In this document: in pieces, positions 49,187 through 51,245 of the stretch
Position numbering within the stretch: the first letter of the stretch is position 1
How the letters are laid out: each line of letters starts with the position of its first letter
DNA from: Promethearchaeota archaeon
GTDB taxonomy: Archaea; Asgardarchaeota; Lokiarchaeia; Sigyniarchaeales; SOKP01
NCBI GenBank assembly: GCA_016839765.1
Contig: JAEOTP010000007.1
Location: 62,001 to 126,000, forward strand
DNA: 64,000 nucleotides
Direction: 5' to 3'
Translations under genes and position numbers: made by a program
The notes under the pieces: generated by a model
Seen by the model: the letters and a program-made list of their open reading frames with translations, nothing else
Database searches by the model: none
Told to the model about the DNA's origin: nothing

Positions 49187-49999
49187 ATGGTTAATAATAA
49201 GAAAAAATTCTGGACTATAAGTGAAATTGATGCAACTGGTGTGAGAGGGCCTCATGAAATAGAATTAAAAAACATTAGTAATGCTAAATACCATAATTTC
49301 ATTAATATTGACCAAGAAAAACTCTTAAAGATTGTAAACGAAGATTTAGGAGCAAAAATTGAAAATATGGGATTAAATGAAGATTGGACTATAACAATTG
49401 AAATGTTTCCTCAAGTAAAAATTCATATAATTTATAGTTATTTTGGTGATGAATTTGGTGACATCGAAGCAGAATTTAAATTTTTATTTTCTGGCGAACA
49501 TGCAAATATGGTTCCAGGTGAAGATAGTGCCACATTTATAGATGTTATAATAGATTTCTTAGAAAGAAGGATTAAAGAAGAAGAACCTTTTGGTAAAAAT
49601 TATGAAAAGAAATCTGAGTTAATGGAAAAGGTTCTAATTCAGAGAGCTAACCCTTTTTCATTATTAGTTGAAAAGGATCTCGAAAAACTTGCAGAATTTA
49701 TAGGAGCTAAAGTATGGAAAACTAAAGGTGGATGGAAAATTAAAAGACAAATCTTTCCAAAAATCTTTACAGAAATAACATGGGATTACCAGAATGGATT
49801 AGATATTTCCTTCTTTGGAGATAATTTATCAAAGAATATAAGCAGTTATCATGGAGAATTAATCGGGATTTTCACCATAAATCACATTTTGAGATATATA
49901 ACAATTCGAAATGAAGAGAAAGATTTACCAGATATTTGCTATATGATGTTTTCTCGGCATTACACAAAAGCTAAAAATTGGAATCATAGAACTCGATAA
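49187..49999 (+). CDS. protein with two DUF3786-like repeats
   Basis: 270 residues made of two similar halves. The first is LGAKIENMGLNEDWTITIEMFPQ, then VKIHIIYSYFGDEF and VPGEDSATFIDVIIDFLE. The second is IGAKVWKTKGGWKIKRQIFPKIFTEITW, then FFGDNLSKNISSYHGELIGIFTINHIL (both quoted as landmarks). The repeated FP...w....g....f.g...s.....e....i...iL pattern resembles DUF3786, a family of unknown function in anaerobes. No signal or membrane segment. It follows the RNA methyltransferase by 39 nt; the link may be only transcriptional. Confidence 0.6.
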   Translation: MVNNKKKFWTISEIDATGVRGPHEIELKNISNAKYHNFINIDQEKLLKIVNEDLGAKIENMGLNEDWTITIEMFPQVKIHIIYSYFGDEFGDIEAEFKFLFSGEHANMVPGEDSATFIDVIIDFLERRIKEEEPFGKNYEKKSELMEKVLIQRANPFSLLVEKDLEKLAEFIGAKVWKTKGGWKIKRQIFPKIFTEITWDYQNGLDISFFGDNLSKNISSYHGELIGIFTINHILRYITIRNEEKDLPDICYMMFSRHYTKAKNWNHRTR

Positions 50000-50042: not shown

Positions 50043-50600
50043 TTATTCAATTGTCCAAATTACTGTTCTTCCTTTCTTTTTGAACCTTTTAACTTTTTTA
50101 GCACTTTCTAAATCGGACATAACTTTCCAAATTTGAGAGTTGCTTAGCTTAAAATACCTTCTTAATTCTGGTGTTGACATTTGAGTGCCGTTTAAAAGGT
50201 TTATTATTAATCTCTTAATCTCATCAACAGTATCTTCGTCTGAACTATCTGAATCTTCCTCAGAGTCATTATCATTTACTTCCATTTCATCAATTATCCT
50301 CAAAGCAATTTTATTTAATTCTTTTAAGTTATTTTCAATACCCTGGGGTTTCATAAATAAGCAACATAATTCTAAGTCTCTTGGAAAAGCTACTATATAA
50401 AATTTGTCGTATAGTATTGCTCTTGGTTTTTTTCCTGCATTTCCTCCTCGAAATGCAAGATAAAAATTCATAGCAAAATCATCTAATTTCAATAGCTTAG
50501 CACTATTACTATATCCTCGTTTCCATTTAAGAAATGGACCATCAATCATATCAAATCCAATAAGAGCAGCCCCAAAAAGTTCTTTTTCATTAAAATGCAA
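50043..50600 (-). CDS. longin-like/winged-helix fusion protein
   Basis: 185 residues. The first 110 look like a longin or roadblock-related domain: ELFGAALIGFDMIDGPFLKWKRG opening strands, then AILYDKFYIVAFPRDLELCCLFMKPQGIENNLKELNKIALRI with the central strand and last helix. An acidic linker (DNDSEEDSDSSDEDTVDE) follows, and the last 70 residues are a winged helix (MSTPELRRYFKLSNSQIWKVMSDLES, wing VKRFKKKGRTVIWTIE). Longin/roadblock domains bind small GTPases in Asgards and eukaryotes, and the preceding gene is exactly such a GTPase, overlapping this start by 11 bp. A GTPase-controlled DNA-binding regulator is a plausible reading; the longin identity is by eye. Confidence 0.6.
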   Translation of the reverse strand: MHFNEKELFGAALIGFDMIDGPFLKWKRGYSNSAKLLKLDDFAMNFYLAFRGGNAGKKPRAILYDKFYIVAFPRDLELCCLFMKPQGIENNLKELNKIALRIIDEMEVNDNDSEEDSDSSDEDTVDEIKRLIINLLNGTQMSTPELRRYFKLSNSQIWKVMSDLESAKKVKRFKKKGRTVIWTIE

Positions 50601-51135
50601 TTTCTTTCATCCTCCTTTTAGCAATTTTTTCTAATTCTTTTTTTATAATATTCATAAGTTTACGACGTTCAGCGGGATTAATTGCTGTAAGGCCATATGT
50701 TTTTACATGAAGTATATCTTCTACTCTTTTAGGTTCCATTCTTCCATCATTTTTCGCTAAATCCTGCTTATTGGCAATCACTATTATAGGGCAGTTATTC
50801 TCGACAAAATGGGTTGCATAATTAATTAATTCGCGAGATTTTAGAACATTTTTCGGTGATGAATCGGTTACTACAAAAAGGAGATCTGAACCTAATAAAT
50901 GATCCCTGCTGCAAGATTGTAGATAACCTTGCTGTCCAGCGAAATCCCATAACTTGATGGTAAAACTATCAAACTTTACAGTCTTTAAGTCAAACCCATG
51001 GGTGGGTAGATAAATTCTATCAATTGTATTTTTAGAAAGCAATTTTAAAATTGTAGTTTTACCAACAGCGGGAGATCCAATTATGCTAACCTTGTAAAGA
51101 TTATGTAATTCAGAACTCAACATCTTATTAATCAA
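50590..51135 (-). CDS. Ras-superfamily small GTPase
   Basis: 181 residues with every G box: G1 GSPAVGKT (20-27), G2 Thr in PTHGFD, G3 DFAGQQ (65-70), G4 NKQD (123-126) and G5 LTAIN (150-154). It resembles the eukaryotic-signature small GTPases that are expanded in Asgard archaea, with DFAGQ rather than the DTAGQ of Rab/Ras. There is no C-terminal cysteine for prenylation, so membrane attachment would need a partner. Its 3' end overlaps the longin-like/winged-helix gene by 11 bp, and both are probably made together. Function, GTPase-activating partner and exchange factor are unknown. Confidence 0.9.
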   Translation of the reverse strand: MINKMLSSELHNLYKVSIIGSPAVGKTTILKLLSKNTIDRIYLPTHGFDLKTVKFDSFTIKLWDFAGQQGYLQSCSRDHLLGSDLLFVVTDSSPKNVLKSRELINYATHFVENNCPIIVIANKQDLAKNDGRMEPKRVEDILHVKTYGLTAINPAERRKLMNIIKKELEKIAKRRMKEIAF

Positions 51136-51245
51136 AAAAAAAGAATTTGTTTAAAGTTAAAAGAACTCATAGTTTATATGAATCTGGATAATATCTACAT
51201 ATCATGGAAGCATTTAAGGAAAAATAAAGTAAATATTGAACTTTC

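Follow-up and report, generated by a model that had tools for sequence, protein, structure and literature searches.

The window analyzed here is a 64,000-nt stretch of a Promethearchaeota archaeon (contig JAEOTP010000007.1), in which two overlapping genes on the minus strand encode an Arf-like small GTPase and a second protein, which we call LW. The following features were defined in this region:

51177..51206, minus strand: operator-like repeats conserved upstream of the operon, with a period of 11 bp, CATGATAT-GTA-GATATTAT-CCA-GATTCATA (promoter comparison)
50590..51135, minus strand: Arf-like small GTPase gene (signature TDSxPxNVL and ANKQD, without a prenylation Cys)
50606..50614, minus strand: ribosome-binding site of LW (AGGAGGATG region), within the GTPase gene (from sequence; conserved in orthologues)
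50043..50600, minus strand: LW gene, 185 aa, with a longin/roadblock-fold domain, an acidic linker and a winged helix; TTG start
50265..50600, minus strand: predicted longin/roadblock-fold domain of LW (residues about 1-112), motif GFDxxxGP (AlphaFold and Foldseek; model of a homologue)
50238..50279, minus strand: acidic low-confidence linker of LW (residues 108-121), net charge -7 in the window (AlphaFold model and charge)
50043..50237, minus strand: predicted winged helix of LW (residues 122-185; weak Pfam/NCBIfam matches, PDB search, AlphaFold and Foldseek)

The two open reading frames share 11 bp (50590-50600), exactly as a preliminary description of this DNA had stated, and their conservation in many genomes excludes that both arose by chance. 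LW starts at TTG 50600, within the last codons of the GTPase gene, with AGGAGG located approximately 10 bases upstream. Both this start and the ribosome-binding site are strongly conserved among orthologues, where the overlap is 4, 11 or 14 bp; such an arrangement is usual for translational coupling. The true start of the GTPase is probably ATG 51123 rather than TTG 51135 because most orthologues of the family begin at the equivalent position, TTG being nonetheless possible.

The GTPase presents the motifs GSPAVGKTT, PT(H)GF, WDFAGQQ and ANKQD, and TAI at G5. The preliminary description had reported a complete G1-G5 set with DFAGQQ and no prenylation site, and we indeed found all of these motifs and no C-terminal Cys. 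Its designation as Ras-like, however, should be replaced: the closest families are Arf/Arl. Arf was the top-ranking Pfam family for the GTPase of the window (1e-16), and the profile of paired GTPases matched Arl3, Arl2 and Arf1 first when compared to the PDB (5e-24), along with entries 8oul ("Arf GTPase") and 8oun ("GTP-binding protein"). The defining characters of the Arf family are thus present (WDxxGQ, NKQD and best superfamily matches to Arf/Arl, based on alignment, Pfam and PDB). The amphipathic myristoylated helix found at the N-terminus of Arf proteins is absent from the alignment, the N-terminus being short (MLSSEL...) and without Gly2. Membership in the MglA family was considered and rejected: this family is defined by a G3 motif without conserved Asp (PMC4316618), whereas Asp64 of G3 is invariant across the aligned paired GTPases.

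When the profile of paired GTPases was searched against eight Asgard genomes, the matches fell into two sets separated by a gap between about 1e-36 and 1e-25. The near set contained the paired GTPases, a few unpaired single-domain GTPases and proteins whose N-terminus is itself a longin-like domain (in cis); in some of the latter, a long tail, rich in proline or charged, and a C-terminal coiled coil are also present. A longin-type domain is therefore often fused in cis to the closest relatives of the paired GTPases, and this domain matches AP-2 sigma (6e-4). On the tree, the paired GTPases were all located on one side of a branch (SH-aLRT 80), which corresponds to one change relative to 17.5 in shuffles. 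Homology between the sequence of the LW longin domain and that of these cis longins was rejected (hhalign probability of 0.4%), so the argument drawn from the fusions is valid at the level of the fold only. No clear interface emerged when the clade-specific residues of the paired GTPases were compared, and no natural fusion of the GTPase and LW genes was found. Proteins of about 570-680 aa that combine a longin-like domain and an Arf-like GTPase were observed with class-wide conservation (loci L135, L138, L147 and L148); their tails are charged or rich in proline and a coiled coil is located at the C-terminus.

Neither Pfam nor NCBIfam detected the longin/roadblock fold of LW; the C-terminal winged helix alone was matched, and weakly. 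In the AlphaFold model of LW, residues 8-112 fold into a beta-beta-alpha-beta-beta-beta-alpha domain, which a disordered acidic linker connects to a winged helix. Using Foldseek, the N-terminal domain matched LAMTOR/MP1-p14, an Asgard roadblock protein, TRAPP and adaptin/COPI longins. We also modelled a divergent homologue with a helix-hairpin-helix (HhH)-like C-terminus, which shares 30% identity with LW and at most 36% with all other aligned sequences except that of a sister species; its best match was the longin Ykt6, followed by Ragulator roadblocks, zeta-COP in complex with Arf1 (3tjz) and a chain of the yeast SEA complex (8adl_S). Both models are of moderate confidence (pLDDT of 76.5 and 81.3; pTM of 0.49 and 0.54) and the E-values of the fold matches were only 3e-4 to 1e-2. 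The N-terminal helix typical of roadblocks is reduced to a helical turn of three residues in the LW model and is missing from that of the homologue, while the second C-terminal longin helix is absent from LW and may correspond to a short additional helix of the homologue (107-113). Because the former helix is missing and the latter uncertain, our assignment stops at the longin/roadblock superfamily, to which the models indicate with good support that this domain belongs.

The winged-helix segment matched mostly DNA-binding regulators by sequence (Lrs14, ZitR, AdcR and CzrA), as well as the Z-alpha domain of a Z-DNA-binding kinase and, weakly, ribosomal protein eS25. Foldseek likewise matched the C-terminal domain of the model to ZitR, AdcR and CzrA. 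A basic residue occupies each of seven positions of the recognition helix and wing (R147, R/K148, K151, K159, R172, K175 and R178) in 89-100% of 35 sequences, and these are the positions where winged-helix domains usually touch DNA. The C-terminus of LW therefore has the hallmarks of a winged-helix DNA-binding domain, i.e., a helix-turn-helix, a beta wing and basic contact residues. The net charge of the domain nevertheless drops to about 0 in some relatives, and winged helices can serve protein contacts too. Identity with Z-alpha was suggested by the PDB matches but was not supported, as the recognition helix (NSQIWKVMSDL) lacks the Asn/Tyr contacts of Z-alpha domains. Overall, the architecture proposed in the preliminary description was borne out: its longin/roadblock domain withstood structural modelling, with Foldseek matches for two models, the linker is acidic, and the winged helix was recovered from both sequence and model.

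LW was matched in 51 of 58 close relatives, and most Lokiarchaeia possess a single copy per genome. All the named contigs with LW belong to Candidatus Lokiarchaeota or Lokiarchaeia, and the winged-helix form is confined to the families of the window's class (f1-f7). Wherever a whole-genome locus of the class extended far enough upstream, LW was directly preceded by the GTPase gene on the same strand (54/54). The gaps range from -17 to +49, mostly -4 or -11, with a Shine-Dalgarno sequence in most loci; judging from this spacing, the pair is nearly always translationally coupled. Family f1 has further conserved neighbors (DUF2070, RsmB and a DUF3786-like gene), the last of which is the convergent gene at 49187-49999 in the window, with a weak DUF3786 match and conserved beside the pair in f1 only. 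In f2-f7 and in other classes, none of these three neighbors was common beyond the pair, and gene contents around the pair differ between lineages. Inherited synteny is thus rejected as the cause of the pairing, and it follows that selection maintains the pair. The preliminary description had made its proposal of an Asgard module dependent on conservation of the pair, which was found adjacent throughout the class; the GTPase-longin core does extend to other Asgard families, but the winged-helix form is restricted to one class. A role in defense was also discarded for this locus, as PADLOC scores were at chance level only. Some loci deviate from the simple pair. In one, LW is duplicated in tandem, the second copy having a coiled-coil-like tail at its end and no longer a winged helix (L113:1684-2965). 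In one lineage, an SRP19 gene (Pfam 2e-25) lies directly 3' of LW (L096:3325-3603), followed by genes read by eye as Gar1-like and TFB.

Two other Asgard families (f27 and f28) present the LW-type longin domain beside an upstream GTPase with a different C-terminal domain of pattern IRGLGPKR. Their longin domain was reciprocally detected with that of the class at about E 1e-14 or better, and their C-terminus showed sub-threshold Pfam matches to helix-hairpin-helix families (IMS_HHH 0.02 and HHH_5 0.12). In another family (f12), the longin domain ends in ten arginines and its gene lies beside that of its GTPase, while in f10 and f22 an LW-type longin stands alone, with no GTPase match next to it. 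That the GTPase-longin core stays constant while its ends, apparently nucleic-acid-binding, change is the strongest indirect evidence for the role of the module. Together with the conserved basic recognition helix and wing, this replacement of the C-terminus in sister lineages supports a nucleic-acid output of LW. A stand-alone HhH-like domain (84-aa frame) was also observed in a genome that encodes a longin-HhH protein (G180:C102:2686-2901).

Upstream of the operon, we identified a direct repeat with an 11-bp period whose unit is approximately RRTAWYAY (about RRTAWYAYNNNRRTAWYAY). Repeats with at least 15/16 matches were found in 38 of 56 operon promoters relative to 0.75 in dinucleotide shuffles, a count that is descriptive since the element was first noticed by eye and the motif definition was tuned on those same promoters. 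The repeat is present even where the GTPase-LW pair is all that lineages have in common. The genome of the window contains 26 exact sites versus 10 for the reversed pattern. We then built a matrix from the orthologous promoters and scanned 840 kb (25%) of this genome, taken as stretches, with a score cut-off of 12. Leaving out the GTPase-LW operon itself, ten genes scored above 12, of which four matched a GTPase/longin profile versus 19 of the 601 genes below the cut-off (p = 2.8e-4; p = 1 for the control with the reversed matrix). Another of these ten is longin-like by Pfam (L166; Fuz_longin_1 1.2e-4, sub-threshold) and yet another immediately precedes a GTPase gene (C67:156935). The repeat is also enriched over the reversed control in families without LW (42 vs. 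9 in f8, 38 vs. 10 in f17 and 37 vs. 12 in f18), which indicates that its reader is probably another factor and that LW is unlikely to be the sole reader. Similar repeats were found in L093, whose recognition helix differs, and in L102, which has the HhH form.

We propose that the GTPase and LW form a single module. The Arf-like GTPase would bind GTP and, in one nucleotide state, dock on the longin/roadblock domain of LW, for which there are precedents in Arf-zeta-COP, Rab-TRAPP, Rag-Ragulator and MglA-MglB. Docking, most likely of the GTP-bound form, would change the availability or the position of the winged helix, which is joined to the longin domain by the flexible acidic linker and would bind nucleic acid, most likely DNA. 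The signal carried by the GTPase would in this way alter either gene expression or chromosome binding. We assign this reading a probability of about one half; the physical binding of the two proteins, its GTP dependence, DNA as the ligand and transcription as the output are all steps that we infer. LW might equally well act as a GEF or GAP on the GTPase, which would be compatible with DNA binding. It is more doubtful that a eukaryote-like GTPase directly controls an archaeal DNA-binding protein from an operon that belongs to a regulon, marked by the 11-bp repeat, co-ordinating how GTPase and longin genes are expressed in Lokiarchaeia.

The most serious alternative, which we nevertheless consider rather unlikely, is that LW is a GEF, a GAP or a scaffold for the GTPase and acts on membranes or metabolism instead of nucleic acid, its winged helix contacting proteins as in ESCRT-II or Npr2/Npr3. 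Longin/roadblock domains usually serve as GEF/GAP platforms (PMC10933270), longin and wHTH domains are united in Npr2/Npr3 (PMC3521125), and the SEA-complex chain is among the fold matches. This scenario is at odds with the conserved basic positions of the recognition helix and wing, with winged-helix sequence matches that are DNA-binding regulators and Z-alpha, and with the HhH-like and poly-Arg replacements, which point to nucleic acid as the common denominator. If LW bound DNA, it might read the 11-bp-period repeat, thereby repressing or activating its own operon and controlling a GTPase/longin regulon. Autoregulation is frequent among winged-helix regulators, and both the presence of the repeat in the operon promoters and the excess of GTPase/longin profiles among high-scoring genes would agree with such a role. 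We regard this as improbable, however, given the enrichment of the repeat in families without LW, its similarity despite a differing recognition helix or an HhH form, and the other winged-helix genes within the regulon that are equal candidates.

It is very unlikely that the winged helix binds RNA or the ribosome instead of promoter DNA, with the GTPase gating a post-transcriptional or co-translational event: the weak eS25 matches and the SRP19 gene adjoining one relative (L096) agree with it, but the best matches of the domain are mostly DNA-binding regulators and proximity to SRP19 is limited to one lineage. Least credible of all is the co-expression of the two proteins without any interaction, which would account for neither the strict pairing and translational coupling in unrelated gene neighborhoods nor the swap of C-termini around a constant GTPase-longin core.

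Several known systems resemble the proposed module. The bacterial MglA-MglB is likewise a two-gene unit, often of adjacent genes, formed by a small GTPase and a longin/roadblock-fold partner; here, in contrast, we are dealing with an Arf-like GTPase that has the Asp of G3, and a winged helix is appended to its partner. An action of Group 3 MglA loci on transcription was predicted by Wuichet and Sogaard-Andersen (2014), in that case via a separate receiver-wHTH protein (PMC4316618). Npr2/Npr3 of GATOR1/SEA also present longin then winged-helix domains and are partners of small (Rag) GTPases (PMC3521125), but LW is devoid of the DENN-like middle part, has one winged helix instead of three and is paired with an Arf-like GTPase. 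LW was not retained as a member of Npr2/Npr3, as neither NPR2 nor NPR3 of Pfam was matched up to E = 10; "NPRL2-like longin domains" have been listed in Loki-B35 (PMC9834061). The Asgard fusions of longin and Arf-like GTPase (PMC4917890, PMC10933270) share the same GTPase clade and a longin-type domain, whereas the longin described here is in trans, has no detectable sequence relation to theirs and carries a winged helix. Finally, the longins of zeta-COP and adaptin sigma similarly associate an Arf-family GTPase with a longin-domain subunit (3tjz; AP-2 sigma for the cis longins), but they function in membrane coat complexes and lack the winged helix. Our literature search, whose coverage excluded most subscription papers, returned no description of the GTPase-LW pair. 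The pair is a variant of the known longin/roadblock-GTPase arrangement, longin-Arf fusions having already been reported in Loki and a bacterial GTPase-wHTH link having been proposed for Group 3 MglA.

Lokiarchaeia are archaea close to the ancestors of eukaryotes, and Asgard genomes encode dozens of eukaryote-like small GTPases. Dey, Thattai and Baum counted among the outstanding questions whether the targets of Loki GTPases might be revealed by operons (PMC4917890), and the study of MK-D1 concluded that GTPase genes of that archaeon are generally outside operons with longin/roadblock genes, so that matching a GTPase to its partner is difficult (PMC10933270). The GTPase-LW pair is a clear, class-wide exception to this pattern and points to a cognate partner for one GTPase. 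It suggests that, before eukaryotes, some of the eukaryote-like GTPase repertoire was used in signalling linked to nucleic acids, and that a GTPase switch may act on genes rather than membranes. The common upstream repeat, in turn, offers a testable handle on the expression of other GTPase/longin genes.

Additional repeat-bearing loci were observed. A possible regulon marked by the repeat (L152-L177) includes GTPase, longin and winged-helix genes, tyrosine recombinases and a PAC2 gene. At L170:1631-2395 (C67:90376-91143 in the genome of the window), a triple copy of the repeat precedes the gene of a second longin-like protein, whose C-terminal segment resembles a winged helix. At L164:311-1921, the repeat lies between an actin gene (Pfam Actin 4e-89) and a small gene just 3' of it, which is winged-helix-like by eye and has no Pfam match. 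In two genomes of the LW-less family f8 (L221 and L222), the repeat is found about 140 bp upstream of a gene read by eye as SMC.
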